Positions 12,036 through 41,375 of a DNA stretch of 64,000 nt are shown one piece after another. A program made the translations under genes and the position numbers. The notes beneath the pieces were generated by a model that saw only the letters and a list, made by a program, of their open reading frames with translations, was not told where the DNA came from and did not search any database. Source of the stretch: Talinum fruticosum (lineage: Eukaryota; Streptophyta; Magnoliopsida; Caryophyllales; Talinaceae); NCBI GenBank assembly GCA_021018815.1, contig JAITYX010000053.1:1488001-1552000 (forward strand). Reading direction: 5' to 3'. Position 1 is the stretch's first letter. Each line of letters opens with the position of its first letter.

Positions 12036-13601
12036 AATCACTTATTAAGAGGGTGAAAATTAAAAATCTAAATCGTGAGTTTTTATCCCTTTTGCATTAG
12101 GAATTTTGCATTTATGCGACCTTGAACATAGTTTTTTTGGACCTATAGGCTTCAACCCTTATGAACCTTTTTTGGAGAGATCGAATCATTATCTTGGTGG
12201 CTCCACTCGACTTAACATTGAGATGTGATTAGTATCCACTCATAGCATGCTTTCTTGATTCTTGATCGAGGAGCATTGATTATTCAAGTACCACTATTCA
12301 TCCCATAGGAGATGAAATTTTCAGATTATGAGTCACCATGTTTATCTTACCTAGAATTACCTTGTAGACATAAAATCTTAGTGATCTAGGTGTGCCTATT
12401 TTTATTTGCATGCTTGAATGAGTGTGGATGTTTTTATTATTTAACATTCTTTTCCCGAGTCTTTAGCTTAGTAAGTTAGGAAAAATTGGTTAGATAAATA
12501 ATCATTGCATTGGTGCAAAAATAAAACATAATAATAAATCCACTTGAGTCGATCTATTTTGTGCATTTTAGCCAAAGTCAAAATTTTCCTCTCCCCTTAA
12601 GGCTAGTCCATTTTTGTATTTTCTGAGTCAATCTATTAGGTTCTAGTCTCGGTCAAATAAAGTTTCAAAAGCGGGCAAAATCCGATTGGTTGTGATCGGC
12701 GCTAGCCCACCATCTTTTCCTCGGGTGGGTTTTCTCCACTGGACTCGCTTTCTGGTTTCTTTAGGTTGTAAGTTTAATTTTTTTACATTTCTCATCATAA
12801 TTGAATTTGATTTATTTTTGCATTTTTAGCCGATTAAAATTCATCTTAATTAAGGTTAGTTCATTTTTTCGCCAATTAAAATTCATCTCAATTAAGGTGA
12901 GTCCATTTTTTTGCTTTTTAGCCAATTAAAATTCATGTCAATTAAGGTGAGTATATTTTTGCCTTTTTAACCAAATTAAATTCTCCTCAATTACGGTGAA
13001 TTAATTTTTTGCATTTTTAGCCAAATTAAATTCATCTAAATTAAGTTGAGTTCATTTTTTTTTTACTTTACCTAATTAAAATTCATCTCAATTACAGTGA
13101 GTCCATGATTTCATTTTTTAGCAAAATTAAATTAATCTTAATAAAAATGAGTACATTATTACATTTTTTAGCCAAATTAAATTCATCTCAATTAAGGTGA
13201 GTCCATTATTGGATTTTTAGCCAAATAAAATAATTGTTCCATCTTTTCCCATTTGGGTCGGCCCATCTCCATCTGTCATTTTGCATTTTTTTGGTCGGTC
13301 TGCATTTTTATGTTCATCTAAAACTAAAGAGCATAACATTTTTTTTTTTATAGAATTGGTCTTTCCTTGGGTCTAACACTTAAGTCCCTTCTCCCTAAAA
13401 GCTTGTTTCCTCTAGTTGGTCCTAAGCACTTATCCTTTTAGGTTGCGAGAATAGGGAAGCCTTTCACAATTGGGTTTCATTGGAATCTGCGTACTAGACT
13501 ATTTAAACAACTAGGTAAAGATTCCACTTCAACATCGTTACGTTCAACACCATCCCCATCAACTCCGGTGTGACCAAAGTCAACAAACTTAACACCGGTA
13601 C
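12036..13601 (+). other. A/T-rich leader of the gypsy-like element
   Basis: There is no convincing gene here. The stretch after the primer site is A/T-rich untranslated leader, with the minisatellite at 12820-13236 inside it, and then mixed sequence up to the LINE insertion point. A long leader between primer site and gag is normal for Tat/Ogre-type elements, which supports but does not prove the assignment. Confidence 0.4.
12820..13236 (+). repeat. minisatellite, ~55-60 bp unit, about 7 imperfect copies
   Basis: Units share the core 'ttagccaaattaaattcat' followed by 'ctcaattaaggtgagt' and 'cattttttgca'. Copies begin near 12826, 12869, 12917, 12969, 13018, 13067, 13118 and 13168. They differ by substitutions and by the length of the T run. 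Array position in a gypsy leader fits the variable tandem repeats known in Ogre-type elements. It is A/T-rich and has no coding meaning. Confidence 0.85.
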
Positions 13602-16800: not shown

Positions 16801-17622
16801 GCATAGAGTCATATGCTTTTTCAAATCAAGTTTCATTATGCATAGAGCAGGGCCCCCTTCCTATTGTACCCTCTTGTGAGTTCTTGACACAACATGACAT
16901 TGTGTACCTCTTGTGAGTTCTTGACACAACATGACATTGTGTACCAGTTCCCTCCACGGGATAAAGGCATACTAGTTTTGATTAACCAAATAATGTAGCA
17001 AAGTTTTCAATCTTGTGGATAACAGTTTAGATATGCACTTGTAGAGCACCGAGTAGTAAGCTACAGGTCTAAAATCTCTCGTTTCCTAAGGGCATGCCAC
17101 TTTGGGTATGAGCACCAGGTTGGTATGACAGATTTGCTTAACAATTTTATTTGTTATGAAAAACTCTTGAATTGTGACAGATCATATGGGAACCAACTTC
17201 TTTCCAACACCGCTTAAAAAACCACTATTGAAGCCATCGGGGCATGGTGATTTTTGTCGGGAATGTTGAACATGGCTTGTTGAATTTCTTCCATGTGAAA
17301 GGAAGACACAAAGCTATCTGCTTCTCTATGTCGAGGGTTGCTCTATATTGAAAGATTTCATCTCTGCAGAGAATCTTACATTGTCTTTGTGCTCCCTAAC
17401 ATATTCTGAAAATAGTTGACCATATGTGTATTAACTACATCTCTACCTTTGATTCTTGCCCTTTCACATTGTAAGGAATGGATAAAGTTCATCTGTCTTC
17501 ATTGCTTCACTATGGATAAAAAGAGCTTTGAATTTATATTGCCCCAGATTAACCTAATCAACTTTACTTTGTTGTTTCATTAACTCCTTTGAAGCCTCCA
17601 AGGCTTTGATGTAGTCTACCCT
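13900..17622 (-). pseudogene. LINE ORF2, reverse transcriptase and zinc-binding tail
   Basis: Reading downwards from 17622: linker EASKELMKQQSKV (about 17600), RT entry block SPCPDGFNSGF (about 17240), DFRPVAYYSVLYKCISK (about 17080-17000), GNRGLRKGDPISPL (about 16670-16630) and the catalytic FTDD at 16516-16505 (usually FADD). Then comes the WLPKKPGGLGLKN and WNKAIIAKHAW block (about 16030-15930), which is the start of the RT-linked zinc-binding domain, and after the solo LTR a CPVCLNEPETT block at about 14090. The enzyme would prime cDNA synthesis at nicked target DNA. Multiple stops and frameshifts make it non-functional. Confidence 0.88.
14166..15660 (+). mobile_element. solo copia LTR inside the LINE (TSD TGAAG)
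   Basis: It starts TGAAGACTCAAACC and ends GAGCGAACTTTCA, the termini of the copia LTRs in this window. TGAAG stands directly on both sides (14161-14165 and 15661-15665), a perfect five-base duplication. It carries TATAAAAAGAAGCC at about 15008 and the usual U5 blocks ('agtactagatcgg', 'ccctattcacccc'). No gag or pol is present, so it is a solo LTR made by recombination. The LINE zinc-binding domain continues on either side. Confidence 0.93.
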
Positions 17623-19105
17623 TGAAGACTCAAGCTCGAACTTATATCATTTTGAGTACTATGAAGGACTCGTGTACAAACCTCATTCCTCCTACGTTTT
17701 GATTACAAGTCATTCGAATAGAAACTATTGCATATGATTTCATTCGATTCCGATCGACTCGTAAATCACATTCTTGTTCATCAACTCACGCTGATGCTTC
17801 TTAGTCACTCGGACACTACTTAGATTTATATCATGTTCAAACAAACTCTCTATCACTTTTAATCTAAGTTCGACATCATATTCTGAATCGAAGTGAATTA
17901 AAGCGTTAATTCAACTTTCTAAGTCAGCATGTTTGTTTGAAATGTATTTGTCTAAGATCAAGCACTTATACTCCGATATTGTCTTTTTAACTTGATCTTT
18001 CCTAAGACTCGACTTTGATGGAATTTGAGTATAATGAATATTAGACTCAATAAATTCCACTCTTCTAGGCCTCGAGATAATTATGCACTTAATTATCTTA
18101 ATTAATTTATTATCCGTGCCTAATCTTGGATCACAGTATTTTTACTTTGAGAACCCAAATTTGTTTACTTTTGTAGGTTATCTAAACGAGGTTATCCTAT
18201 TTTTCGAATTACAAAAGTAACCTAGGTTTCAAGTTATCAATCACCGATAGACAAGGCTTTTCTACTTCGAACAGGGCTCGGACGCCGTGTCGTGGTTGTC
18301 TATTTCTAAAACTGGAAATCTTTAATGCTAAGCTCAATGGTGGTTTCTACCCTACCTTTCGAGACACCACCAGTGGATTGGGACATCTCAAGGAGTCAAT
18401 AGGCTGTTGCACAACGTTCACATCTCGACGGATTTTTCTAAGCGACTCGGAACAACCGTTAAACAATCACGAAGGACTTCTATTCGGAAGGTAGTCACAG
18501 CGGCTAATCTCCTTGGTCATCTATAAATAGAAGCCAACTCTCAAGACTTGAAGATTTCTGGAATTATTGTCAATACACATTACTTAAGCGAAAGTCTTTG
18601 TATTCATACTCAATCTTCTACTTACAACTCCCGACTTGTTATTCATATTTTCCGAGTTGTCGGGTCTTGTAATCAGTCACATACTCTTTCTTACTCTCTA
18701 AGTAAGATCCCTTGACTAAGGTGTAAGGGTTAACTCTGCTCGGTTGTCCTTAGTCTGTAAAGGTTACCTCGGTTAGGAAGTACTAGATCGGATAAGGCAA
18801 CTTCGACTCCGGGAAAATCTGTAAGGAATTGTTTAAGGGAGCAATTCAGGCTGAGTCAATCTGCTGTATTTTGTGGATTGAAAATAGTGGATTTGACTTG
18901 GTGCTTGGACTAGCACTGGTCGTGGTTTTCTACCCCAGGATGGTTTCCACCTAAATCCGAGTTCATACTTTTCCGAGTCCAATCTAGACTCGGATCGCCT
19001 TGATTATCCTTTTCAAGCTTGAATCTTCCAAGTTTGTTAAAATTTCCTTATCACCCTATTCACCCCCTCTAGGGTGACTAAGACTCTCTAAGAGCAAACT
19101 TTCAA
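17623..19105 (+). repeat. 5' LTR of copia D
   Basis: TGAAGACTCAAGCTCG...CAAACTTTCA, 1483 bp, pairs with the 3' LTR at 45320-46806. The TATA box in ATCTATAAATAGAAGCC lies near 18521. R-U5 holds the 'agtactagatcggataagg' and 'cacccctctagggtgac' blocks shared by all LTRs of the family. The two LTRs show scattered substitutions and small indels against each other, so the insertion is older than B's. Confidence 0.92.
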
Positions 19106-19164: not shown

Positions 19165-19849
19165 ATGGCTCGGAACAATAGAGAGTTCGATGAAGGAAGA
19201 TCTTCCAGCAGACCACTAAAGTTTAAAGGATCAAATTTTGTACACTTGGAAGAAGCTCATGGAATGCTTTCTACTCGATCACGATGAAGATGTATGGAAC
19301 ATCATATAAGAGGGCAACTACATTCCAATGAAGATGGAAGATACAAGACCCGTGCCTAAAGCAAAGTTCGAGTACACCATCGAAGAGGCGAAAAGTTCGG
19401 AAAGAACTTTAAAGCGATGAACATTCGATGTGCACCATCAGCTCGGAAGAATACAATAGAGTGTCAGCTTGTGACACAGCCAAAGATGTATGGGACACTC
19501 TTTTCAACACATATGAAGGAACAAGCCAAGTAAGACAAGTAAAGATAAGTTAATATCTTCAAAAATACGAGTTGTTCAAGATGGAGCTAGAAGAAAACAT
19601 CACTCGGATGTTCATCCGCTTCACTAAGATTACAAATAATCTCAAATCTTTGGGTAGAAAGATTTCCCATGAAGAGATGTGCAGAAAAATTCTAAGAAGT
19701 CTACCCAAGAGAAGATAGGGTCCCAAGGTGACAGCCATCGAGGAAGCTCATAACCTCTCACTACTAAAGCCAAACGAACCGATTGGGAAGCTACTTACCC
19801 ATGAAATCCATCCGGAAGAAGAGGATGCCGAGGTCGGCACTAAAAAGAA
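19165..19849 (+). pseudogene. copia D gag, 5' part (split by element B)
   Basis: The start ATG at 19165 (MARNNREFDEG) corresponds to B's gag start at 23948. The region carries the UBN2-type gag core: FNTYEGTSQV-like sequence at about 19505, the QYLQKYELFKMELEEN-like stretch at about 19550-19595, FIRFTKITNNLKSLG at about 19614-19655 and PKVTAIEEAHNLSLLKP at about 19720-19770. Gag forms the virus-like particle. The frame is interrupted by a stop in the pre-core part and by indels. Element B cuts it at 19850, and the gag reading resumes at 33156 (KKNITLKA). Confidence 0.82.
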
Positions 19850-22800
19850 TGAAGACTCGGACAATGCTCAATACCTTTCCGAGTTATGTAAAAGGAATCA
19901 GGTATTACAAGTTCATACATATAGAGTTTTGATTCCAAGGCATTCTCGGTATCGCGAAACTTCTTTGAGGAAAATAGTATCTTCTCTTAGTAATACGGCT
20001 TTCACTTAATGCACTTATTGCGTTTTCGTAAGCGACTTGAAAACCGGTTCTTTATTCCGAGTTCTTCTTCACTCGGATTTATCACGTTTTGAATATACCA
20101 AGTACTCTTACTTCATTTCATGCTTAGTCTATATCGAGTTATCTCACTCGATATTTCTTATGGAACTTGCTCTATCACTTAGACTAAGTCGGATGAAATT
20201 CGAGTATCATGGACATTGGACTCAGAAAATTCCATTTCGTTTCGACTCGGATAAATAGTTGCTTAATTATTATAATTATTTTATTATCTCGTGTCTAATC
20301 TTGGGCCAAAGTATTCTATACTTTGAGAACCAAAATTAATTTACTTTTGTAGGTTATTCATTCGAGGATACACCTTTTTCAAACCACAAAAGTAATCGGC
20401 TTCGAACGTCAAATCACCAGCGAGACATGGCTCTTCACCTTCCCCGCTCCAGTCCCGTAAGATTGTGTCGAAGTCGCTCTGTTTTCATATCCGAAAACCT
20501 GAACGCTAAGCTTAACGGTGGTTTCCACCTCATTTTTCAAGACACTACCGATGGTTTTGGGACTTCCAAGAGAGTTAAACCGTTGTCCACCGTTCATATT
20601 TCAACGGATACTTTCGAGTGACTCAAAAAGCCTCTATCAACGGTCACGAAGACTCTTGGTCGCGAGATGAAGATAACGGCTACTCGATCCGGTTATCTAT
20701 AAATAGAAGCCACTTCACAAGAGTTGAAGATTGCCGAATCTATTGTTAATACACATACGTGAGAAAAGTGTAGGTTATTCATTCGAGGATACACCTTTTT
20801 CAAACTACAAAAGTAACCTGGCTTCGAACGTCAAATCACCAGCGAGACATGGCTCTTCACCTTCCCTCGCTCCGAGTCCTAGAAGATTGTGTCGAAGTCG
20901 TCTGTTTTCATATCCGAAAACTGAACGCTAAGCTTAACGGTGGTTTCCACCTCATTTTTCAAGACATTACCGATGGTTTTGGGACTTCCAAGAGAGTTAA
21001 ACCGTTGTCCACCGTTCATATTTCAACGGATACTTTCCGAGTGACTCAAAAGCCTCTATCAACGGTCACGTAAGACTCTTGGTCAGCGAGATGAAGATAA
21101 CGGCTACTCAGTCCGGTTATCTATAAATAGAAGCCACTTCACAAGAGTTGAAGATTGCCGAATCTATTGTTAATACACATACGTGAGAAAAGTGTAGGTT
21201 ATTCATTCGAGGATACACCTTTTTCAAACCACAAAAGTAACCGGCTTCGTAACGTCAAATCACCAGCAGACATGGCTCTTCACCTTCCTCGCTCCAGTCC
21301 CGAAGATTGTGTCGAAGTCGTCTGCTTTTCATATCCGAAAACTGGAACGCTAAGCTTAACGGTGGTTTCCACCTCATTTTTCAAGACACTACCGATGGTT
21401 TTGGGACATCCAAGAGAGTTAAACCGTTGTCCACCGTTCATATTTCAACGGATACTTTCCGAGTGACTCAAAAGCCTCTATCAACGGTCACGTAAGACTC
21501 TTGGTCGCAGATGAAGATAACGGCTACTCGATCCGGTTATCTATAAATAGAAGCCACTTCACAAGAGTTGAAGATTGCCGAATCTATTGTTAATACACAT
21601 ACGTGAGAAAAGTGTAGGTTATTCATTCGAGGATACACCTTTTTCAAACCACAAAAGTAACCTGGCTTCGAACGTCAAATCACCAGCAGACATGGCTCTT
21701 CACCTTCCCCGCTCCAAGTCCTGAAGATTGTGTCGAAGTCGTCTATTTTCATATCCGAAAACTGAACGCTAAGCTTAACGGTGGTTTCCACCTCATTTTT
21801 CAAGACATTACCGATGGTTTTGGGACTTCCAAGAGAGTTAAACCGTTGTCCACCGTTCATATTTCAACGGATACTTTCGAGTGACTCAAAAAGCCTCTAT
21901 CAACGGTCACGAAGACTCTTGGTCAGCAGATGAAGATAACGGCTACTCGATCCGGTTATCTATAAATAGAAGCCACTTCACAAGAGTTGAAGATTGCCGA
22001 ATCTATTGTTAATACACATACGTGAGAAAAGTGTAGGTTATTCATTCGAGGATACACCTTTTTCAAACCACAAAAGTAACCTAGCTTCGAACGTCAAATC
22101 ACCAGCAGACATGGCTCTTCACCTTCCCTCGCTCCAGTCCTAGAAGATTGTGTCGAAGTCGTCTGCTTTTCATATCCGAAAACCGGAACGCTAAGCTTAA
22201 CGGTGGTTTCCACCTCATTTTTCAAGACACTACCGATGGTTTTGGGACTTCCAAGAGAGTTAAACCGTTGTCCACCGTTCATATTTCAACGGATACTTTC
22301 CGAGTGACTCAAAAAGCCTCTATCAACGGTCCACGAAGACTCTTGGTCAGCGAGATGAAGATGACGGCTACTCAGTCCGGTTATCTATAAATAGAAGCCA
22401 CTTCACAAGAGTTGAAGATTGCCGAATCTATTGTTAATACACATACGTGAGAAAAGTGTAGGTTATTCATTCGAGGATACACCTTTTTCAAACCACAAAA
22501 GTAACCGGCTTCGTAACGTCAAATCACCAGCAGACATGGCTCTTCACCTTCCTTGCTCCAGTCCCGTAAGATTGTGTCGGAAGTCGTCTGTTTTCATATC
22601 CGAAAACTCGGAACGCTAAGCTTAACGGTGGTTTCCACCTCATTTTTCAAGACACTACCGATGGTTTTGGGACTTCCAAGAGAGTTAAACCGTTGTCCAC
22701 CGTTCATATTTCAACGGATACTTTCCGAGTGACTCAAAAAGCCTCTATCAACGGTCACAGAAGACTCTTGGTCAGCAGATGAAGATAACGGCTACTCGGT

Positions 22801-23888
22801 CCGGTTATCTATAAATAGAAGCCACTTCACAAGAGTTGAAGATTGCCGAATCTATTGTTAATACACATACGTGAGAAAAGTGTAGGTTATTCATTCGAGG
22901 ATACACCTTTTTCAAACCACAAAAGTAACCTGGCTTCGTAACGTCAAATCACCAGCAGACATGGCTCTTCACCTTCCTTGCTCCGAGTCCCGGAAGATTG
23001 TGTCGAAGCCGTCTGTTTTCATATCCGAAAACTGGAACGCTAAGCTTAACGGTGGTTTCCACCTCATTTTTCAAGACACTACCGATGGTTTTGGGACTTC
23101 CAAGAGAGTTAAACCGTTGTCCACCGTTCATATTTCAACGGATACTTTCCGAGTGACTCAAAAGCCTCTATCAACGGTCACGAAGACTCTTGGTCAGCAG
23201 ATGAAGATGACGGCTACTCGGTCCGGTTATCTATAAATAGAAGCCACTTCACAAGAGTTGAAGATTGCCGAATCTATTGTTAATACACATACGTGAGAAA
23301 AGTCATTGTATTTACTTTCAATCTTCTACTTATAACTCCCACTCAGTATTTCATTACTTTCCGAGTTGTAAGGTCTTGTACTCGATTACAAACTCTTTCT
23401 TACATTCTTTGTAAGGTCCCTCGGCTAAGTCGTAAGGGTTAACTCAGCTTAGTTGTCCCTAGTCGTAAGGGTTATCTCAGCTAGGAAGTACTAGATCGGA
23501 TAAGGGAATTTCGAGTCTAGGAAAACTTGTATAGAGTTGTCTAAGGGAGCAACTCGGGTTCGACCGCTTCACGGTATTTTGTGGACTCCAAATAGTGGAT
23601 TGGACTTCGTGTCCGGATTGACACGGGCCGTGGTTTTCTGCCCCAGGAGGGTTTCCACGTAAAATCTAAGTATTATCTTTCCGAGTTCATTCTAGACTCG
23701 AGACAGCCTTACTACTCTTGTTCTTTCCGATTGATTGCTTTCGAGTCCAAGCTTTTCGACCCAGTTGATAGACTCGGAATCTATCTTCCTTTCTACCTCC
23801 GAGCAAAAGAGTGTGATTTCGCGAAAATTTCCTATCACCCTATTCACCCCCTCTAGGGTGACTCGGACTCTCCCCGAGCAACCCTTCA
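19850..23888 (+). repeat. 5' LTR of copia B, expanded to 4039 bp
   Basis: The LTR runs from TGAAGACTCGGACAATGC to GAGCAACCCTTCA. Its unique left part (19850-20348) and right part (23304-23888) match the 3' LTR closely. Between them lie seven tandem units instead of one. The left part has the U3 sequences with 'atttcttatggaactt' and 'actttgagaaccaaaatt'. The right part holds U5 with 'agtactagatcgg' and 'ccctattcaccccctctagg'. Because reverse transcription makes both LTRs alike, the size difference arose after integration, or one end was altered or misassembled. Confidence 0.92.
20349..23303 (+). repeat. seven-copy tandem array of a ~421-bp LTR promoter unit
   Basis: Units start at GTAGGTTATTCATTCGAGG: 20349, 20770, 21194, 21614, 22033, 22458 and 22882, the last ending at 23303. 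Lengths are 421, 424, 420, 419, 425, 424 and 422. Each unit has the upper U3 part, a TATA box in TCTATAAATAGAAGCCAC and the first ~70 bases after it, ending GAGAAAAGT. The array is therefore seven core promoters in head-to-tail order. Unit joints share GT between the upstream and downstream sequence, a 2-bp microhomology. Copies are almost identical, apart from small changes at a few fixed sites. The units also produce short ORFs on both strands (MALHLP..., MNGGQRF...), which are chance. Confidence 0.97.
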
Positions 23889-23890
23889 AT

Positions 23891-23902
23891 TGGTATCGAG
23901 CC
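23891..23902 (+). promoter_or_regulatory. primer-binding site of copia B
   Basis: TGGTATCGAGCC lies two bases after the 5' LTR. It is the initiator-Met tRNA site TGGTATCAGAGC with one base missing, which itself falls next to a CG. Confidence 0.82.
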
Positions 23903-23947: not shown

Positions 23948-25740
23948 ATGGCTCGGAACACCGGAGAGTTCGACGAAGGAAGATCTTCCAACAAAGCTAC
24001 CAAAATTCAAAGGTTCAAACTTTGGGCACTCGGAAGAAGCTCATGGAATGTTTCCTTATGGATCATGATGAAGAAGTATGGGAAATCATACAACAAGGAA
24101 ACTACATTCCAACAAAGACAGATGAATTCAGAATTCTTCCCAAGACAAAGGCCGAGTTCACACCAGCAGGCGAGAGAAGTTCAAAAAGAATTTCAAAGCC
24201 ATGAACATCCTTATGTGCGCCATAAGCTCGAAGAATACAACCGAGTGTCTCGCTCGTGATTCAAGCAAAAGAAGTGTGGGACACCCTTGTCAACACTTAT
24301 GAAGGCACAAGTCAGGTCGACAAGCAAAGATAAGTCAATATCTTCACAAATACGAGCTTTTCAAAATGGAGCCGGAGGAGAACATTACTCGGATGTTCAT
24401 TCGGTTCACTGGAGATTACAAACAATCTCAAATCACTCGGGAAAGAAGATCTCCCACAAAGAAATGTGCAGGAAAATTCTCGTAAGCCTACCCAAGAAAA
24501 GATGGGGTCCCAAAGTGACCGCCATAGAGGAAGCTCGAACCTCTCTCTCCTAAAGCCGGACGAGCTCATTGGAAAGCTTCTAACACATGAAATCCATCTA
24601 GAGGAGGAGGATGCTGAGGGTAGTACCAAAAGGAACATTGCACTTAAAGCCTCGTAATCCAAGGAAGCAAATCCGAGCTCCTCCGACTCGTAAGACGATC
24701 CCATGGCACTTATTGCAAGAGGCTTCAAGAGAATGAAGAAGCACAAAAGATGGGACAAAAGGCCAAAAGAAGAACTCTACAAGAAAGATAAGAGAGATAG
24801 AAAAGGTAAGTTTTCTTCTCCTTCAAAGTTATCTTTATCTAAGAATTCCGGATGTTTTGAATGTGGCAAAGAAAGACCACATAGTCAAGGACTCGTCCAA
24901 AATGGAAAAGGGACAGAAAGAAGAAAAAGGCCATGATGGCAACATGGAGCGATGACGACTCATCGGAAGATGACGAGGACTCGAGACGACTCAAAGTGCC
25001 GCACTCTCGGACTCGAAGCTAAAAGAGAGTCGACTCGGACTCGAACAATGAGGAAACCGATCCTCAAGAGGTAATAAACTACTTCCTCAAATTCTCCAAA
25101 GTTGATTTAGCTAAATATATTTTTACTTTGGAAGAAAGGTCCAATTCTGATTCTTCTCAATTCAAAGAGCAACTTGAGTCAATCACTTCGAGAGCACTTC
25201 TTTGAAAAACGAATTGGAAAAATTGAGACTCACACTCGAGAGAACTCAAGACTAGTGCTCAAGCTAATGAGACCGAGTCCGAGTTACTCAGAAAGAAAAT
25301 GAGCGACTAAAATAGAAGCTCACCGAGTCTCAAGATCTCGGTTTTAAAGTTTACTCAAGGTCGAAGAACCTTGACATGCTCTTAGGATCACAAAGTGTGT
25401 CTCTTTTCGAAAAGAAGGTCTTGGTTTCAATAAAGAGGAAGAATCTAATTCCTACTCGAATTGTTCAAAAGGATTCCGTAACTGTAAAGTTCGAGAAAGC
25501 CGAGCACGGTCCCATTCATAGAAATGAAAGGAGGACTAAGCCTAGAGCTATTTACAAAGAGAAACCATTTTCTTCTGTTTCAAAAAGAAAAGTTTTCAAA
25601 AAGAATGAGACACGGACTCGGCTTCTCGAGAGGAAGACTCGTAATCGGACAAAACCCAAAGTCATTCAAATCTGGGTTCCGAAACACCTTCTTCCTCGTA
25701 AAAGGACCACAGTAAGGAATGTTACTTGGGTTCGTTAGAG
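23948..25740 (+). pseudogene. copia B gag with zinc knuckle and coiled-coil linker
   Basis: The start is ATG at 23948 (MARNTGEFDEGRSSN), matching D. The UBN2-type core runs to about 24660 (for example HDEEVWEIIQQGNYIPT at about 24070). The zinc knuckle is at 24853-24896: CFECGK, then DHIVKDC in a shifted frame, giving C-x2-C-x4-H-x4-C. An acidic AMMATWSDDDSSED-like tail and a Leu/Glu/Ser coiled coil (about 25090-25350) link to pol. Gag would package the RNA and form the particle. Single-base frameshifts break it often, many beside CTCGG/CCGAG words. The gag layout with the ATWSD tail and long coiled coil is typical of Sirevirus-like elements. Confidence 0.86.
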
Positions 25741-28700
25741 GAAGTGAGAAGGGTTAGATTCTCTTTGTTTTGCAGGTCACTCGGAAGAGATCAAAAGGAC
25801 ACTGGTATCTTAACAGTGGATGCTCACGCCATATGTCGGAGATGCTGGACTCTTTTCCGAGTTGAACAGGACATGAAGGAGGAAAAGTCACATTTGGAGA
25901 TGATAGCAAGGGCAAGATCGTGGGGATTGGCAAGATTGGAAAAGGAAGCAATCTGGTCAGTCCAAGTATATCTTGTCAAGGGATTGAAATATAATCTGCT
26001 CAAGCATCTCTCAACTATGTGACAAAGGTCGAGAGGTAAGATTCACTCGGACGAATTGCACTATTTCGATGTCTCTACCAAAGTGATCAAGCTTTCAGGT
26101 AAGAGATCGGGTAATACATACATCATCCCTCTTTCGACCCAAGTAAGAACTTATCTTGTTTAAAGGCATCTCTCCATGATGACTCTTGGACTTGGCATCG
26201 TAGATTAGGCCATATCAGCATGCATACTATCAAGAAATTGGCATCTAATGGTTTAGTTAGGGGTTTACCTAACTGTGTTTTTGAGAAAGACAAAGTATGT
26301 GAAGCATACACCAGAGGGAAACAAGTCAGATCCTCATTCAAATCTCTCGAAGACAGCTTCCACATCCAAAGTACTTGAATTATCGCATATGGACTTATGT
26401 GGTGAAATCCCCGTGAAGAGTCTCGGAGGTAAATCTTACATACTTGTCATTATTGATGATTTTTCACTATTTACCTGGGTGTGTTTTCTTAAGCACAAAA
26501 ATGAAGCCTTCAAGGAGTTCAGCAAGCTCTGCAGAAAGATTCAAGTTGAGTCTCGGACTCGGATCCAGAGAATTCGAACTTACCATGGAAGGGAGTTCGA
26601 TTACTCGTAATTCTCAAAATTTTGTGACAAAAATGAAATCTCTCACAACTTCTCAGCACCCAGAACTCCTCAACAGTAATGGAGTAGTAGAGAGAAAGAA
26701 CAGAACCCTTGAAGAAATAGCAAGGACGATGATGATTGAACACAACTTGCCTTACTATTTCTCAGGCGGAGGCGATAAACACAACCAATTACACGCTAAA
26801 TAGATGCCTCATCGGACCCATTCTCAAGAAAACACCCTATGAGCTCTACAAAGGGAAGAAGCTAAATATCTCCTATTTCGGACCTTTCGGATGTAAATGC
26901 TTCGTCCACAACAATGGTAAGGATCATCTCGACCAAGTTTGATGCTCGGTCGGACGAAGGTATTTTTCTCGGGTTACTCCTCTCATAGCAAAGCATATCG
27001 TATCTTTAATAATCGAACTAACAAAGTGGAAGAAAGCATCCACGTAGTATTTGATGAGCTTGAACAGGAGAAACCAAGTGAGTCTTCATACTCGAACCGA
27101 AGCTCGTAAAGGATGATGACGAAGTTGAGCCTACAAAGACTTAGACCCAACATGCTCGTAATGAAGTCACTCGTAACGTGGAAACTCGGAATGAGGCGGT
27201 TCAAGAACTCGCTCGTAACGAACAAGTTAATGAAGAGGATCACTTAGAACAAGCTTCGAAGATCAAGCAGTTCAGCCCACAAACCCGGTGAATCAAAGAA
27301 CTGGTAAAGCATTCAAATTTACTTCAAGTCATCCCCAAGAAAACATCATTTCGATATCAACAAGTGGGGTAAGAACTCGTTCGTCTTTACATAATCTATG
27401 TGCATTCACTACATTCATTTCATTAACTGAACCCAAAAATGCACTAGAGGCCCTTAATGAACCTGAATGGGTAGAGGCCATGCAAGAAGAACTTAATCAA
27501 TTCGAGAGAAACCAAGTCCGGACTCCGACCAACCGACCTTCCGACCACCCAGTTATAGGAACCAAATGGGTTTTCAAAAACAAACTGGATGAGGGTGGAG
27601 TGGTAGTCGAAACAAGGCTAGACTTGTGGCTCAAGGTTACAACCAAGAAGAAGGAATTGATTGTGGGGAAACCTTTGCACCTGTAGCTGAATTGAGGCCA
27701 TTAGAATACTGTTGGCATTTGCATCCAGCATGCATATTAAATTATATCAAATGGATGTTAAGTGTGCTTTTCTCAATGGTTTTATTGAAGAAGAAGTCTA
27801 TGTCGAGCAGCCTCCTGGTTTTGAAAACTCGAATTTCCAAATCATGTTTTCAAACTTCAAAAGGCTCTCTATGGTCTTAAGCAAGCACCTCGAGCTTGGT
27901 ATGAAAGACCGAGTAGCTTCTTGGTTCAAAATGATTTCAAAAGAGGTCAGATCGACAAGACTCTCTTCATAAAGACCAAAGGGAAAGATTTTCTTATTGT
28001 TCAAATTTATGTTGATGATATTATTTTCGGTGCTACTAATGAATTTCGTGCCGAGAATTTTCTCGAGTTGATGAGTCAAGAATTTTAAATGAGTATGATG
28101 GGAGAACTCAATTTCTTCCTTGGGCTGCAAATCAAACAAGACAAAGATGGAATCTTTGTTCATCAATCAAAATACACCAAGGAACTGCTGAAGAAATACA
28201 AACTTCAAGATGCAAAGCACGCATCTACTCCCATGAGCAAGCAAGATAAAGTTTGACTCATACGAGAAAGGTAAAGTAATAGATCGAAACTCTATCGAGG
28301 TATTATTGGATCTTTGCTATATCTTACTTCAAGCAGGCCAGATATAATGTTATGTGTTTGTTTATGTGCAAGATTTCAAGCTAATCCAAAAGAGTCACAT
28401 CTCACTCGCGGTGAAGAGAATATTTAGATATCTTGCAGTACTCGGAATTTAGGTCTATAGTACTCCGGAGACTCGGAACCGACTCTAACCGGGTACTCGG
28501 ACGCAGACTACGCAGGTTACAAAGTTGATCGAAAGAGCACATCCGGAGCTTGCCAATTTCTGGGTCAATCCCTAATATCTTGGCACTCAAAGAAGCAAAA
28601 CTCGGTAGCTCTATCGATCGCGGAAGCTGAATATATTGCCGCGGGAGCTTGTTGCGCTCGGATTCTTTGGATAAAACAACACTTGAAGGATCTTGGACTA

Positions 28701-28950
28701 TTTCTCAACTCGGCTCCGATCAAGTGTGACAACCAAAGCGCAATCGGCATCACTAAGAATCCTGTCCAAGCACTAAAAAACAAAGCATATTGAGGTTAGG
28801 TTCCATCGCTTACGCGATCACTCGTAATAGGGTGATATTGCACTTGAGTTCATTCCTACTAATCTTCAATTAGCTGATATCTTTACTAAGCCCCTTGGTG
28901 AAGATCAGTTTTGTTTTATTCGCAATGAGCTTGGTATGTTAAATGCTTAA
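25741..28950 (+). pseudogene. copia B pol: protease, integrase, RT, RNase H
   Basis: Protease WYLNSGC at 25803-25823 has Asn (25812-25814) where the catalytic Asp is expected. The pre-integrase domain is at about 26150-26340 (WHRRLGHISMHTIKKLAS). In the integrase core the DDE positions are Asp at 26392-26394 (HMDLCG), Tyr at 26581-26583 where the second Asp should be (RTYHG), and Glu at 26690-26692 (GVVERKN). RT covers about 27530-28255, with YVDD at 28008-28019. RNase H (YSDADYAGYKVDRKS, SIAEAEYIAAG) is at about 28490-28900. The frame ends in GMLNA-stop at 28950. Frameshifts are numerous (for example near 26610, 27610, 27690 and 28250), so this is a pseudogene as written. Confidence 0.92.
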
Positions 28951-29609
28951 TGATGTACTATCTTTGTTGCAATAATTCCGTGCTATGTGCTTTCCGTGTT
29001 AATAACAATTAGTTCAGCTTGATTCAGTGATACTCGGGCTAATAGTTATTTCGTGTTTCGAGTCACTCGAAAACTTTCCGAGTCACTCGAAAACTTTCCG
29101 AGTCAAACTCGCACGTAGAAAAATTTGGACATCAAATTTTCTGAAACTATCTCTAGAACAGTGGAGAGTTTCGGATTATTTTTCAAAATCTTTTTCTCTC
29201 TCTTTCTCAAGCGCTGCGATCAGATCTTAGCCGTGGAATTCTAACTGCTGGTATCTCAACCGTTGAAGAAGAATCGTCACACCGGTCTTTGGTGATCGAT
29301 GGACAAGCCGAGTCGAACGGAGTTACTTAACGGATAGTGGATGGGTGCGCTTATTTTCTATAAATAACGACTATCCATCTTCATCTCTGTATTCTAAACT
29401 CCATCTCTCTCAAACGAAACTTCTCGGGAAGACTTCTACGTGAATAGTCACTCTTGATCGTCCGCAAGCATCCAAGAAGCTCTCTCTTTCTCTCTCGTAA
29501 GTTTCGATCTGCTCTCATCTCTTTCTTCTACATTTTTCTTTTTCTTCTCTTCTACACCTCCTTCTCTTTTCACTTCGAAAAGTTTCATCTTTTCTCTCCT
29601 TCTCTCAAA
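28951..29609 (+). other. pol-ORF3 spacer of copia B
   Basis: No gene is visible. The spacer contains a tandem repeat of 'tcgaaaactttccgagtcac' near 29065-29105 and accgttg-type blocks. It then has the TATA box at 29359 and a C/T-rich leader up to the ORF3 start. Its layout recalls the U3 part of the LTR, though sequence similarity by eye is weak. Confidence 0.5.
29359..29366 (+). promoter_or_regulatory. internal TATA box ahead of ORF3 (element B)
   Basis: TATAAATA in TTTTCTATAAATAACGAC is about 410 bases after the pol stop and 250 before the ORF3 start. The same arrangement occurs in A (3183) and D (41376). It would fit separate transcription of ORF3. Confidence 0.55.
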
Positions 29610-31222
29610 ATTCCTAAAAGAGGAAACCATCCCGACTTCCAAGTTTCTCCCTCTTCCAAAAAGCCTCGCACCAATAAGCCGTAAAGCTCAACCCCTTCCA
29701 AACCCGTTGTTACCCAAGCACCTTGCGCTGGATGACAAATTCTTTCCAACAACCAAATTTTCTTGGTTGTCCAACATCCAAACCACGGGAGTATACTACT
29801 TCCTGTGTTTCATCGAGTTCATCTATCCCGAACTCGTTTCCGAGTTCTATGCTCACCTCACTCACTCCGAAAATGTTCTAACCTCTAGGGTTCGTAACAT
29901 TACTGTTCGCATTAACACCTCTCTCCTCCACCGCCTGTTCAAAGTTTCTTCTCTTTTCTTGAACAGCAATCCTATCCCTTTCACTCGAAGTCGCCGACGA
30001 CTTCTTTGAAAAATATGCCAAAGAATTCCCCGGGTCCAGGAAAACTTTTCCGTGACTCGGCTTGAAGTCGAAGCTCGCTTTCCGTGCTTTCTGCTAATGA
30101 GAACCTTCTTCTCACAAAGCATTCCAGCAAGGAGAACCCCAACTCCAAGCACCTAAAAGCTCTCTTCGACGTCCTTGAGGGATACGAAGTAAACCTCTTC
30201 CCCTCCATCATTGAGCGGATGGCAGCTGTGCCAGCTCAACTCCAATCCAAGAAGAACACCTCCCTTCCTTTCGGTGCTCTTCCGACCCTTGTCTTCAAAC
30301 AATTTCAAGTTCCTCTTCCTCTCGACCCAAACGCGGTGTCCGAGGTGGCCATCGTGGTCAGCAAGAAGGAACTTCGAGGGTACGGATACCGGAAACCGAC
30401 CCCGGTGTCCGGGTCCACAACTCGGAGCCGAGGCCTCCCTCTCCTCCTCGGACTCGGAAATCAACCCCTCTTTCTCTTCCCTCTTCATCTCGCTGGTACC
30501 TCCACCTCGAGTGCCGCAAAATCTCTCTCTGCTCTCTTGTCCCTCGTTTTCATGGACAAGATCGGCTCTGTCTCTTCCGATTTCGGAGACATGCTCCGAG
30601 GTTTCAAATCTATCCTCCAAGGTCCGACCATCAACCAAAAGATCGGTCGAGTCCCAAATCCGAGAGCAAGCAATCTCTCGTTCTTGAGATGAGGGAGCTG
30701 GTCCAGGAGCGAAGGAGCTGGTCGAACTCCTTAGAGAGAGACGGTCCAAGGCGGCTCGAGACCAGGATGACTCGGACGCGTCCGAAGCGTCTTCGAGTCC
30801 AGGTCCGACCTCCTCGGACAGCGGGGATGAGGAAGATGAGAAAGAAGAGGAAGAAGCCGCAGATGCAGCAGAAGATGCTCGAGGAACCCGCGGCTGAGGC
30901 AGGCCCTTCCGGCAAAGGGAAGAAGAGCTCGTGGCAACCGCCGAGGGTCGATCGCTCCCCAAGCTCAAATTGCATTACTCAGCTCGGACAGCCAGCCCGA
31001 GTGGGTCGAAGACCTCGCTCCTCCAGCGGGTCGACAAAGCAGCCCCTTCCAGCCACTAAGGTCCCAAGGGAAGAACCCCTCGATCCACTCTCTCGGGTCG
31101 GCCGCTCGTAGCCGAGCCCCGAGGACAATCCCGGTTCTCCCTTCGCCGCGCTCAAGCACATCGTCAAGATCATACCAGCGCCGGCGCACCTCCGCCTCCA
31201 CTCGAAATCCCCTCCCTCGTAG
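29610..31222 (+). pseudogene. copia B third ORF (ORF3), function unknown
   Basis: By comparison with A and D the start is at 29610, where ATG has become ATT (ATTCCTAAAAGAGG). Blocks in order: PKRGNHPD, then LDDKFFPTTKFSWL (about 29725-29765), FIEFIYPELVSEFYAHL (about 29810-29855), VRNITVRINTSLLHRLFKVSS (about 29895-29955), LFDVLEGYEVNLFPSIIERM (about 30155-30220) and PFGALPTLVFKQFQVPLPLDP (about 30265-30330). Next come a Ser/Pro-rich middle, a charged region with RKKRKKPQMQQ (about 30835-30870), and a Pro/Arg-rich tail ending at the stop at 31222. The N-terminal half resembles the 'putative plant transposon protein' family (inference). I see no transmembrane helix. Two or three frameshifts break it. 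Confidence 0.68.
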
Positions 31223-31351
31223 GAGCCATGCACCGAGTCACAATTCCTCGGTGTCTCTGAATTTTTTTCTTTTTTTTGTCCGGACAACTAATGTGTATTA
31301 CTTGTTCTTTTCTCCCTTCTTCTTTTTGTTAATTTTTTTTTGCTGAAAGGC

Positions 31352-31637
31352 AAGGGGGAGAAATGTAATCGAAACACCTGTTGTCCTGTTTAGGGGAGAT
31401 TTTTCCGCCTTTTTTGAATTTTAATGGATTAATACATTTCATTATTAATTTCTGAGTTCATTTATTTTTCTGAGTTAACGTTAAAGCATACGTTATTTGT
31501 TTCTCGCTCCGATATATTATATATTGCTCTAAACTATTAAGTATGTCTTACTCATGCGCAAACCCCTCGGAATCAATTTCTTTTTCTAACAAAGTTTCTG
31601 TTTAAGTATGGAATGCCTTTCATCAACAAGGGGAGAT
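31352..31637 (+). promoter_or_regulatory. three polypurine tracts before the 3' LTR of copia B
   Basis: Purine tracts lie at 31352-31364 (AAGGGGGAGAAAT), 31392-31399 (AGGGGAGA) and 31628-31636 (AAGGGGAGA), the last directly at the LTR. The last is the normal primer for plus-strand DNA. Extra PPT-like tracts upstream are a known habit of Sireviruses. The same three occur in D. Confidence 0.75.
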
Positions 31638-33150
31638 TAAAGACTCGCACAATGCTCAATACCTTTCCGAGTTATGTAAAAGGAATCAGGTATTACAAGT
31701 TCATACATATAGAGTTTTGATTCCAAGGCATTCTCGGTATCGCGAAACTTCTTTGAGGAAAATAGTATCTTCTCTTAGTAATACGACTTTCACTTAATGC
31801 ACTTATTGCGTTTCCGTAGCGACTCGTAAAACCGGTTCTTTATTCCGAGTTCTTCTTCACTCAGATTTATCACATTTTGAATATACCAAGTACTCTTACT
31901 TCATTTCATGCTTAGTCTATATCGAGTTATCTCACTCGATATTTCTTATGGAACTTGCTTTATCACTTAGACTAAGTCGGATGGAATTCCGAGTATCATG
32001 GACATTGGACTCAAAAATTCCATTTCGTTTCTCACTCGGATAATTAGTTGCTTAATTATTATAATTATTTTATTATCTTTGTCTAATCTTGGGCCAAAGT
32101 ATTCTATACTTTGAGAACCAAAATTAATTTACTTTTGTAGGTTATTCATTCGAGGATACACCTTTTTCAAACCACAAAAGTAACCGGCTGCGTAACGTCA
32201 AATCACCAGCGAGACATGGCTCTTCACCTTCCCTCGCTCCAGTCCCGGAAGATTGTGTCGAAGCCGTCTGTTTCCATATCCGAAAACTGGAACGCTAAGC
32301 TTAACGGTGGTTTCCACCTCATTTTTCAAGACACTACCGATGGTTTTGGGACTTCCAAGAGAGTTAAACCGTTGTCCAACGTTCATATTTGAACGGATAC
32401 TTTCGAGTGACTCGGAAAGCCTCTATCAACGGTCACGTAAGACTCTTGGTCGGCAGATGAAGATAACGGCTACTTTGTCTCGGTTATCTATAAATAGAAG
32501 CCACTTCACAAGAGTTGAAGATTGCCCAATCTATTGTTAATACACATACTTGAGAAAAGTCATTGTATTTACTTTCAATCTTCTACTTACAACTCCCACT
32601 TAGTATTTCATTACTTTCTAAGTTGTAAGGTCTTGTACTCGATTACAAACTCTTTCTTACATTCTTTGTAAGGTCCCTTGACTAAGCTGTAAGGGTTAAC
32701 TCAGCTTAGTTGTCCCTAGCTGTAAGGGTTATATCAGCTAGGAAGTACTAGATCGGATAAGGGAATTTCCGAGTCTAGGAAAACTTTTATAGAGTTGTCT
32801 AAGGGAGCAACTCGGGTTCGACCGAGTTCACGGTATTTTGTGGACTCAAAATAGTGGATTGGACTTTGTGTCCGGATTGGCACGGGCCGTGGTTTTCTGC
32901 CCCAGGAGGGTTTCCACGTAAAATCTAAGTATTATCTTTCCGAGTTCATTCTAGACTCGGACATGCCTTACTACTCTTGTTCTTTCCGATTGATTGCTTT
33001 CTAAGTCCAAGCTTTTCGACCCAGCTTGATAGACTCGGAATCTATCTTCCTTTCTACCTCTGAGCAAAAGAGTGTGATTTCGCATAAAATTTCCTATCAC
33101 CCTATTCACCCCCTCTAGGGTGACTCGGACTCTCCCCGAGCAAACCTTCA
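31638..33150 (+). repeat. 3' LTR of copia B, single promoter unit
   Basis: 1513 bp, beginning TAAAGACTCGCAC (TG changed to TA) and ending CAAACCTTCA. It has one copy of the promoter unit (about 32139-32558) with TATA near 32488. Compared with the array units it has private differences, such as 'tccaacgttcatatttgaa' and 'acacatacttgag', which none of the seven 5' copies shares. The mutated first base may hinder re-integration of progeny, but this is inference. Confidence 0.93.
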
Positions 33151-33155
33151 AAGAA

Positions 33156-37208: not shown

Positions 37209-37323
<115 letters not shown>

Positions 37324-37541: not shown

Positions 37542-40434
37542 CTATATTTCTGATGCAACTACCAAGGAGACTAAGCTCTCGGGTAATACCTACACTATTC
37601 CTCTTTCGATCCAAGTCAGAACTTATTTGTTTAAAAGCATCTCTGCATGATGATTCTTGTACATGCCATCGTAGACTAGGTCATGTTAGCATGCACACCA
37701 TTAAAAAGCTTGCATCTCACGGTTTTGTCGGAGGCTTGCCTAACTGTGCATTTAAGAAAGATAAAATTTGTGAAGCACAAAAGGGAAACAGATCAGATCA
37801 TCTTTCAAATCTCTCAAAACTATTTCCACATCCAAAGTGCTTGAAATGTTGCATATGGATTTATGTGGTGAAAAATTCTTGTAAAGAGTCTCGGAGGTAA
37901 ATCATATGTACTTGTGATTGTTGATGATTACTCACGATTTACGTGGGTTTGTTTTCTTAAGCACAAAAATGAAGCTTTCAAAGAGTTCAGCAAGCTCTGC
38001 AGGAAAATTCAAGTTGAGTCTCGGACTCGGATCGGAAGAATTCGAACTGACCATGGAAGGGAGTTCGATTACTCAGAATTTGTAGAGTTATGTGATAAGA
38101 ATGGTATCTCCCACAACTTCTCAGCACCAAGAACTCCTCAACAGAATGTAGTAGTGGAGAGAAAAATAGAACTTTTGAAGAAATAGGAAGGACAATGATA
38201 ATTGAACATGATCTACGTTACTATTTCTAGGCTGAGGCGGTTAACACAAGCAAACTACAGTCCGAACAAATGCCTCATCAGACCCATCCTGAAGAAAACT
38301 CCATACGAGCTCTACAAAGGGAAGAAACCCAACATTTCATATTTCAAGCCCTTCGGATGTAAGTGTTTTGTTCACAATAATGGTAAGGATCACCTGGCCA
38401 AATTTGATGCTCGGTCGGATGAAGGTATTTTCCTTGGTTACTCATCTCATCGTAAATCATATTGCATTTTAATTAAAAGAACTAACAAAGTGGAAGAAAG
38501 CATCCACGTTGTTTTTTATGAGATTGATTAGGGAAAACCACATGAGTCAACATTCTCAGAACTTAAACACAGTCGAGATGAAGATGATCTTATCGAAGAT
38601 GAGCTCGGAAAGAGTCAAGGAAAAGCAACTCAGAATGAGACAGCTTAGAATACCACGACTCGGATCGAAGCAGCTCAAGAGCCAGCTCGGAATGCTGAAA
38701 GTCAATCAGATGAGCAAGCTCAATCAGATCGGAGCACTCGAAGATCAACCAATTCAACCTACAAATTTGGTGAACCAGAGAACAGGTAGAGCATTCAAAT
38801 ATCCTTTGAGTCACCCACTCGAAAACATCTTGTCCGACATCAACAGCGGGGTAAGAACTTGTTCTTCTTTGTAAAATCTATGTCCATTCACTGCATTCAT
38901 GTCATAAACTGAACCCAGAAATAAACTAGAGGCCCTAAATGAACCTAAATGGGTAGAGGCCATGGAAGAGGAAATTAATCAATTTGAAAGAAACCAAGTA
39001 TGGACTCTAACCAAACGACCTTCCGACCACCCAGTCATAGGAACTAAATGGGTTTCAAAAACAAACTGGATGAGGAGGGGTTGATAGTCAGAAATAAGGG
39101 TAGACTTGTGACTCAAGGTTACAATCAAGAAGAAGGAATTGATTGTGGGGAAACCTTTGCACCAGTAGGTAGGATTGAAGCAATTAAAATCCTATTAGCA
39201 TTTGCATCAAGCATGAACATTAAATTATATCAAATGGATGTCAATTGTGCTTTTCTGAATGGTTTCATTCAAGAGGAAGTCTATGTTGAGCAACCCCCTG
39301 GATTTGAAAACTTAGAATTTCCAAACCATGTTTTCAAGTTGCAAAAGGCTCTCTATGGTCTTCAACAAGCTCCAAGAGCTTAGTATGAAAGACTCGAGCA
39401 ACTTCTTGGTTAAAAATGATTTTAAAAGAGGTCAGATTGACAAAACTCTTTTCATAAAAACCAAGGGGAAGGACTTTCTTATTGCTCAGATCTATGTTGA
39501 TGATATAATTTTTGGAGCTACTAATGAAAATCTATGCCGAGATTTTTCTGAGTTAATGAGACAGGAATTCCAAATGAGCATGGTGGGAGAACTTAATTTC
39601 TTCCTTGGTCTACAAATCAAGCAAGACAAGGATGACATCTATGTTCATCAATCCAAGTATACTAAGGAGTTGCTGAAGAAGCACAAGCTTCAAGATGCAA
39701 AACATGCAACAACACCAATGAGTAGCAACATAAAAATGGGCTCGGACTAGAAAGGTAAAGCGAGTAGATCGAAACTCTATCGAGGTATCATTGGATCTCT
39801 ACTATATCACACATCCAATAGACCAGACATTATGTTTAGTGTATGTATGTGTGCAAGATTTCAAGCTAATCCAAAAGAATCATATCTCACTACGGTGAAG
39901 AGAATATTTAGATATCTTACAGGGGCTCGGAATCTAGGTCTATGGTTTTCAAGAGACTCAAAATTGACCCTTACTCGGATACTTCGATGCTGACTATGGT
40001 GGATACAAGGTTGATAGTAAGAGCACCGTAGGAGCTCGCCGGTTTCTAGGCCAATCCCTTATATCTTGGCACTCAAAGAAGCAGTAACTTAGTAGCTCTA
40101 TCAACTACCGAAGCTGAGTACATGGCAGCTGGAGCATGCCGTGCTCGGATTCTATGGATCAAGCAACACTTGAGAGATCTTGGACTTTCATTCAAATCAA
40201 TTCCAATCAAGTGTGACAATCGAGTACAATCAGCATCACTAAGAATCCAGTTCAGCACTCAAAGACAAAGTATATTGAGGTCAAGTATCATTTTCCGAGA
40301 GACCAGTCCGAGAAAGGTGATATTGAACTTGAATCATTCCTACAAAACTTTAACTGGCTGATATCTTTACTAAGCCACTTAGTGAGGATCAGCTTTGCTT
40401 TATTAGGAATGAACTTGGCATGATAAATGCATGA
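37542..40434 (+). pseudogene. copia D pol: integrase, RT, RNase H
   Basis: After the solo LTR the pre-integrase domain resumes (CHRRLGHVSMHTIKKLAS at about 37660-37720). The integrase core at about 37850-38420 keeps RTDHG with Asp at 38049-38051, and VVVERK for the Glu, where the Gly of GVVER is lost. KKTPYELYKGKKPNISYF and the GCKCFVHNN block follow. RT lies at about 38940-39750, with MDVNCAFLNG and YVDD at 39493-39504. RNase H runs at about 39960-40300, and the stop after MINA is at 40434. Frameshifts occur, for example near 37880, 38165, 39383 and 39750. The RNase H end is duplicated (see 39941-41029). Confidence 0.92.
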
Positions 40435-41029
40435 TTATGTGTTTTTCTAAAGTGAAATTATCTTGTATGATTATGTGTTATATGATTATGGTTTTCAAGA
40501 GACTCAAAATTGACCCTTACTCGGATACTTAGATGCTGACTATGGTGGATACAAGGTTGATAGAAAGAGCACCTTAGGAGCGTGCCGGTTTCTAGGCCAA
40601 TCCCTTATATCTTGGCACTCAAAGAAGCAGAACTTAGTAGCTCTATCAACTGCTGAAGCTGAGTACATGGCAGCTGGAGCATGCCGTGCTCAGATTCTAT
40701 GGATCAAGCAACACTTGAGAGATCTTGGACTTTCATTCAAATCAATTCCAATCAAGTGTGACAATCGGAGTACAATCAGCATCACTAAGAATCCAGTTCA
40801 AGCACTCAAAGACAAAGTATATTGAGGTCAAGTATCATTTTCCGAGAGACCAGTCCGAGAAAGGTGATATTGAACTTGACTCATTCCTACAAAACTTTAA
40901 CTGGCTGATATCTTTACTAAGCCATTTAGTGAGGATCAGCTTTGCTTTATTAGGAATGAACTTGGCATGATAAATGTATAATTATGTGTTTTTCTAAAGT
41001 GAAATTATCTTGTATGATTATGTGTTATA
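39941..41029 (+). repeat. 546-bp tandem duplication of the RNase H end in copia D
   Basis: The block from TATGGTTTTCAAGAG (39941) through the pol stop and following spacer (to 40486) is repeated directly at 40487-41029. The two copies are nearly identical, so the duplication is recent relative to the element. The joint shows TATGG on both sides, a short microhomology. The second copy is a pseudo-RNase H without an RT in front. Its differences from the first copy (cgatgctgac/agatgctgac, gatagtaag/gatagaaag) sit mostly at CG-type words. Confidence 0.93.
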
Positions 41030-41375
41030 TGTCTCTTTTATGTGTCTTAATAACAATTAGTTCAGTTGACCCATTGATACTCGAGCTAGAAGTTATTATC
41101 TCGCTTGCGGTTTCGAGTAAACTTTACTAAGTCGGACTCAGCTTTTTAGAAAATTGGACTTCAAACTTATGAAATCATCTCTAGATTAGTGGAGAATTTC
41201 AGAAATTTCCTTTAAAATTTCACGTTTTTCTTTGTCTCTCACGCGTATCTATCGGAGAACTAGCCAGGAGACAGACGCTAGAATTCTAACTGTTGGAGAG
41301 CGGAACGGACACACCGGTCCGAGGCGACCGTTGGAGAGCCGGGTCGAACGGATACTCGAAGGACATTTCTTTCTC

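Follow-up and report, generated by a model that had tools for sequence, protein, structure and literature searches.

Tandem repeats built wholly from the long terminal repeat (LTR) region of one retrotransposon family are known from maize as CRM4TR and CRM1TR (Sharma et al. 2013, PMC3648361). The CRM4TR units contain the TATA box; they begin about 395 nt ahead of it, in the unique 3′ region (U3), and run from the LTR into the untranslated region (UTR), with 39 full-length monomers of 1369–1391 nt. CRM4TR and CRM1TR are locally homogenized and occupy only one or two loci, their parent is a Ty3/gypsy centromeric element, and the authors propose that they started from an LTR-UTR~LTR arrangement with the internal region deleted. 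The monomer of the RPCS satellite of Ctenomys rodents is short (348 bp) and shows features of an LTR U3, among them a TATA box (cited in PMC3648361; listed in PMC6947457). In Tat/Ogre LTR retrotransposons, short arrays of 3′ UTR tandem repeats, thought to arise during replication and to travel with the element, seed satellites (Vondrak et al. 2019, PMC7004042), and the enhancer repeats of retroviral LTRs, for example in porcine endogenous retrovirus, multiply in tandem during virus passage (PMC8625113). We compared these systems with a locus in a window of 64,000 nucleotides of Talinum fruticosum (assembly GCA_021018815.1, contig JAITYX010000053.1, positions 1,488,001 to 1,552,000), in which a copia-type retrotransposon, element B, carries an array of seven promoter-bearing units in its 5′ LTR and one such unit in its 3′ LTR.

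The array was read from the sequence at 20349–23303, and Tandem Repeats Finder places it at 20348–23303 with a period of 422, 7.0 copies and 96% matches (Table 1). An earlier sequence-only reading of the window had described seven units in the 5′ LTR against one in the 3′ LTR, and a length difference of six units. Both descriptions hold: the single 3′ unit lies at 32137–32560, and the LTRs (4039 and 1513 bp) differ by exactly 2526 bp. The edges of the 3′ unit are ...TTTACTTTT/GTAGG on the left and ...GAGAAAAGT/CATTG on the right; the array junctions join GAGAAAAGT to GTAGG with one base of microhomology, a T common to both edges. A six-base inverted match (ACTTTT/AAAAGT) is also present at the unit edges, from which no inference is drawn. 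Each unit starts in U3 and contains the core promoter; its end lies about 70 bases beyond the first base of the TATA box. The stretch TATAAATA is identical in all seven units and the 3′ LTR, and the TATA box is identical in 7/7 units, inside 54 identical bases; the 3′ LTR is one base off. We consider it likely that these seven tandem TATA-bearing copies of about 420 bp arose from the single unit of this same 5′ LTR by local DNA duplication after integration, and not by reverse transcription.

The genome-wide distribution of the junction supports this origin. The searches covered the window's own assembly (620 Mb, 264 contigs), and edges and junctions were matched with up to two mismatches. The ordinary left and right edges of the unit gave 8814 matches (control 1) and 1603 matches (control 0), respectively. 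The unit–unit junction gave six matches, all in the array (reversed control 0), and no transposed copy with this junction was found elsewhere in the assembly. Family loci were sampled in two ways. In one sample, 40 of 5476 first-look candidates were scored, and among the 46 matches listed eight lie in element B and 38 outside the window. The other sample comprises the first 20 loci, in order, among the 100 right-edge matches listed, leaving aside loci already fetched. There is one unit per LTR at 58/58 sampled family loci outside the window (38/38 and 20/20). Some fetched stretches hold further weaker matches, at least 0.9 kb off (centre to centre) or on the other strand, which, judging from how long these LTRs usually are, lie in other LTRs.

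Two substitutions set the array apart from its family. The exact 22-mer with ACGTGAG and the exact 26-mer with CCACCG each have seven matches in the assembly, only the seven units. The ACGTGAG site is T in 39/39 readable of 40 other units and the CCACCG site is A in 36/36 readable of 40; at both sites the 3′ LTR agrees with the family. With these substitutions and the junction private to the locus, the earlier proposal of one founder for all seven units is borne out. Both variants that it had named as absent from the 3′ LTR are real; in tccaccgttcatatttcaa, only the C of ACCG is specific to the array, and the second difference (TTTC versus TTTG) belongs to the 3′ LTR, since C is present in 37/37 readable other units (3/40 unreadable). 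The 3′ LTR carries changes of its own, TTTG and GCCC. Reverse transcription makes both LTRs equal at integration, and the 3′ LTR has the family form; therefore, the founder changes would have arisen in the 5′ LTR after integration, in one unit, before multiplication or during homogenization of the units. A rare base in AAGAGTTGAAGA is present in 7/7 units and the 3′ LTR, in 0/39 readable other units and in 0/13 readable further ones; its 23-mer occurs 25 times genome-wide, eight of them in element B. This shared base speaks for an origin of the array from the same element. Taken together, the private junction, the private founder substitutions and the single-unit family loci make it very likely that a single 5′-LTR unit mutated after integration and was then amplified locally.

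The units differ among themselves at 17 variable clusters, of which 12 overlap CG or CHG sites; random placement of 17 clusters gives 6.6 at such sites (standard deviation 2.0), and 12 is reached in 13/2000 placements. Each of the 12 also varies among the 23 other copies in the alignment. The remaining five are the length of an A run and four clean substitutions: C>T in unit 2, C>T in units 2 and 4, T>A in unit 3, and A>G in units 5 and 7. Indels show the same bias, with 168/192 at CG/CHG sites in pairwise comparisons within the array and 96/110 in the LTR pairs of five other elements; for rough comparison, some 30% of LTR positions are no more than two bases from such a site. Methylation-linked base-calling error probably underlies these indels. 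In bacterial nanopore data, about 75% of erroneous indels in Neisseria lie at or beside methylated sites, and none in Salmonella (PMC12506013). The unit lengths of 419–425 bp given in the earlier reading are correct as assembled; because of the CG/CHG bias, which other family copies share, the units probably do not truly differ in length, and sequencing noise probably accounts for most unit-to-unit variants as well. This noise could also break reading frames, and the broken frames of element B are possibly in part its product. The same probably holds for much of what distinguishes repeat copies from one another in this assembly, which calls for caution.

We compared the leaders predicted from the seven promoters. 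From its predicted start, each unit would include the first ~41 nt of the transcript. The predicted leader of promoter 7 is 685 nt long and has no ATG (shuffled sequences have a mean of 4.8, and none in 7/2000), whereas those of promoters 1–6 contain 20, 17, 14, 11, 7 and 4 upstream ATGs. There are three or four ATGs per unit, and the upstream frames are closed, with 9–91 codons. The ATG count was extended to 36 of 38 family copies (L009–L046; two without an exact TATA match were dropped), which are related and count as one family property. Between the predicted start and the LTR end, they hold 31 ATGs in 22 564 bases, against 243 on the opposite strand; the stretch upstream of the predicted start has 259 in 22 759 bases. 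This scarcity on the sense strand downstream of the predicted start supports its placement. The seven core promoters that the earlier reading saw on the genomic-RNA side are thus present in anatomy, with a TATA box in each, but their functional multiplication is doubtful. Because of the 4–20 upstream ATGs, the extra promoters probably add no Gag, and seven promoters probably do not give seven-fold useful expression. Unit 7, the only one that adjoins a normal leader, is probably the sole promoter of translatable Gag RNA.

Other histories of the array were weighed against these data. Both LTRs may have been multi-unit at integration, made or copied in that state by reverse transcription, with the 3′ LTR later shrinking to one unit and the 5′ array becoming homogenized. 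Unequal exchange can contract tandem LTR units, and homogenization could spread founder substitutions; however, the junction occurs nowhere else in the assembly, all sampled loci are single-unit and the 3′ unit lacks both private substitutions, which makes this course of events unlikely. The array could also be an artefact in which the assembly piled up repeat reads into more or fewer units than there are, as the noise of the assembled sequence at CG/CHG sites might suggest. The earlier reading had listed such an assembly effect beside amplification after integration and unequal exchange. Amplification after integration is supported, but the assembly effect is disfavoured because no two units are identical: each has its own variant combination, the closest pair (units 6 and 7) has nine differences, and no block resembles a copied assembly piece. 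Moreover, the contigs seen are 0.67–17.6 Mb long, which speaks for long reads, and assemblers usually collapse repeats rather than invent them. We regard an artefact as quite unlikely.

Import of the 5′ LTR from an already amplified donor, by ectopic exchange or gene conversion, would explain the difference between the LTRs in one step. It is nevertheless extremely unlikely: no donor was found in the assembly, where the junction and both founder k-mers occur only at this locus, the rare base in AAGAGTTG is common to the array and the 3′ LTR, and the AAGAA target-site duplication is intact. A different kind of proposal, compatible with local duplication as the origin, is that the array is a selected gain, in which seven promoters raise expression and spread as retroviral enhancer repeats do. 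The TATA box is kept in every unit, and more LTR enhancer repeats mean higher retrovirus expression (PMC8625113). However, the assembly holds no progeny with the junction, six of the seven predicted leaders are burdened with upstream ATGs, and the assembled reading frames of the element are interrupted, which noise may partly explain; selection for the array is therefore very unlikely.

Several points weigh against local duplication after integration as we reconstruct it. The genome-wide junction search addressed this exact junction, and tandem LTR units with other breakpoints lie outside its reach. The number of seven units is a count in one assembly, and the start sites are inferred from the TATA box with an assumed spacing of 31 bases. 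Of the four changes common to the whole array, two also occur outside it: TTTTCAT is present in 1/25 readable other units (15/40 unreadable) and the AA form of CTCAAAAG in 2/39 readable ones. The rare AAGAGTTG base was tried as a marker of element B only, as no other fetched locus seemed to have it; its 23-mer turns up at 17 further places beyond element B, and the base is rare, not unique. The age contrast is also weak. With CG/CHG and gap neighbourhoods masked, which probably lowers the values, divergence is 1.25% between the LTR flanks (10/803 sites) and 0.56% within the array (32/5765 pairwise sites). Counted as events, there are four in 1925 unit-sites against ten in 1606 flank-sites (Fisher p = 0.061), so a younger age of the array than of the LTR flanks is suggestive only. 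Finally, an older array kept uniform by concerted evolution, together with the loss of six 3′-LTR units, would look similar, except that the junction is absent elsewhere. The unmasked unit identity of 96% was rejected as an age measure, given the masked difference of 0.56%. In maize, an LTR distance of 0.0122 is dated to 0.94 million years (PMC3648361); if rates are like those of maize, the insertion of element B would be about 1 million years old or somewhat more.

Local duplication would have proceeded in three steps. After integration, the 5′-LTR unit would have collected its own substitutions. A first duplication would then have joined the two unit edges at 1 bp of microhomology, by non-homologous repair or replication slippage; there is no long homology at the joined edges. 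In-register unequal sister-chromatid exchange or gene conversion would subsequently have brought the array to seven units and kept these similar. The clean variants shared by non-adjacent units (2 and 4, 5 and 7) fit either process. For the CRM-derived repeats, gene conversion was proposed and unequal exchange was left possible by the authors (PMC3648361).

The array also bears on how such an LTR would be transmitted. In standard reverse transcription, the strong-stop copy of RNA from promoter k could pair with the single 3′ unit through its final 41 bases, so that progeny LTRs would have 8 − k units and the last promoter would reset the LTR to one. The assembly yielded no other copy with the junction, so either the upstream promoters see no productive use or element B has stayed in place since the amplification. 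We tentatively raise the possibility of a general rule, in which RNA from promoter k of n tandem promoters rebuilds both progeny LTRs with n + 1 − k units. Only the last promoter is predicted to have an ATG-free leader; its use would erase the array in each generation, and use of the upstream ones would transmit it; arrays would thus be reborn repeatedly by host recombination, invisible to the family, and seed satellites only at their birthplace. A locus with its own single-unit 3′ LTR as a time-zero reference makes this promoter-choice rule testable.

Element B has the structure of an LTR retrotransposon, with TG...CA ends of the 5′ LTR, AAGAA on both sides and a primer-binding site (Table 1); as an exception to the TG start, the 3′ LTR begins with TA (31638–31639). 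The integrase precedes a copia-type reverse transcriptase, which places it in Ty1/copia. Domain profiles match gag_pre-integrs at 26115 (64.9 bits), rve at 26257 (26.9 bits, below the cut-off of 32.6 bits) and RVT_2 in three pieces at 27593–28085 (25.6, 52.2 and 70.5 bits; cut-off 31.6); a weak Transposase_32 match at 29458–30006 has 20 bits against a cut-off of 45 and is the only match that bears on a place in the SIRE/Maximus lineage of copia, for which reverse-transcriptase phylogeny and an envelope-like ORF are the criteria. The primer-binding site is presumably of the initiator-tRNA-Met type, for which CAGAG is the expected form. It reads CGAG in element B, CGAG or CGGAG in 13/13 readable of 38 loci, and TAGAG in the outer element described below; the CGAG/CGGAG form fits a systematic sequence error but could be real. 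Scans for tRNA and Rfam gave 0 matches.

Table 1. Coordinates in the window of element B, its array and related features
Feature	Position	Strand	Remarks
Target-site duplication AAGAA, left copy	19845–19849	+	Read from sequence
5′ LTR of element B	19850–23888	+	4039 bp, TG...CA, holds seven units
Left unamplified part of 5′ LTR (U3)	19850–20348	+	Ends ...TTTACTTTT at array
Unit 1	20349–20769	+	421 bp, TATA at 20698
First of six identical unit–unit junctions, TGAGAAAAGT/GTAGGTTATTCATTC	20760–20784	+	Others start at 21184, 21604, 22023, 22448, 22872
Unit 2	20770–21193	+	424 bp, TATA at 21122
Unit 3	21194–21613	+	420 bp, TATA at 21542
Unit 4	21614–22032	+	419 bp, TATA at 21961
Unit 5	22033–22457	+	425 bp, TATA at 22386
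Unit 6	22458–22881	+	424 bp, TATA at 22810
Unit 7	22882–23303	+	422 bp, TATA at 23232; sole unit adjoining ordinary rest of LTR
Right unamplified part of 5′ LTR (rest of repeat region R, unique 5′ region U5)	23304–23888	+	
Primer-binding site region, TTGGTATCGAGCC	23890–23902	+	TTGGTAT site at 23890
Internal region of element B	23948–31637	+	Reading frames interrupted as assembled; copia-type order of gag_pre-integrs, integrase core and RVT_2 pieces
3′ LTR of element B	31638–33150	+	1513 bp, one unit at 32137–32560, TATA at 32489
Target-site duplication AAGAA, right copy	33151–33155	+	Read from sequence
Related lone LTR, outgroup	42536–44114	−	One unit, 43124–43549

Element B is nested in the gag region of a related outer element, whose LTRs (17622–19104 and 45319–46806) are 89.6% alike and which encloses element B and the lone minus-strand LTR. 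Nested LTRs of related families occur at 17622–46806 in the window and also at family loci L012, L017 and L070. Near the 3′ end of pol in the outer element there is a second tandem duplication of about 546 bp (39941–40484 and 40487–41031, 97% alike), so duplication at the half-kilobase scale is not peculiar to the LTR. Elsewhere, the window holds a perfect (TTA)38 microsatellite at 37209–37323, a minisatellite at 12811–13231 (~50 bp, 8.6 copies, 75% matches) and, at 51678–52412 on the minus strand, an open frame with DUF4216 (E 1.6e-16), a common domain in plant CACTA-type elements.

The beginnings of tandem repeats are often hidden, since the founder sequence is lost. At this locus, the 3′ LTR (the sister of the founder), both edges, the target-site duplication and junction-free relatives are all present; thus, the order of integration, founder mutations and amplification can be inferred. 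The locus also suggests that the two LTRs of an element can come to differ grossly after integration while the rest of the family shows no trace of it. Our literature search, of partial coverage, turned up no report of a locus-private multiplied core promoter in one LTR. Among the known systems, the retroviral enhancer repeats share tandem multiplication within an LTR. These repeats are usually in both LTRs and inherited by replication, whereas element B has the whole core promoter multiplied in the 5′ LTR only, one unit in the 3′ LTR and a junction found in no other copy. The array differs from the Tat/Ogre repeats in lying in the 5′ LTR rather than downstream of pol and in being private to one locus, although both are short arrays within an LTR retrotransposon. 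The RPCS monomer is similarly short and TATA-bearing, but RPCS is a full satellite and not an array still inside its element; with seven units at one locus, the array is not satellite DNA in the sense of long arrays with many copies or loci. The array is akin to CRM4TR in that the monomer comes wholly from the LTR of one element, begins in U3, includes the TATA box and has a private junction. Local homogenization, which is probable here, and the restriction to one or two loci are likewise common to both. In contrast to CRM4TR, the unit of ~421 bp lies inside one LTR of a copia element instead of running from LTR to UTR, there are only seven copies, and both element ends, the 3′ LTR and the target-site duplication are in place. 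In summary, the reading that fits best is that of a nascent tandem repeat, produced by accident in the host genome and not seen to be transmitted by the element. Very likely, an LTR promoter piece was amplified at this one locus after integration; events of this kind are known, and this one is preserved at an unusually early, still legible stage.

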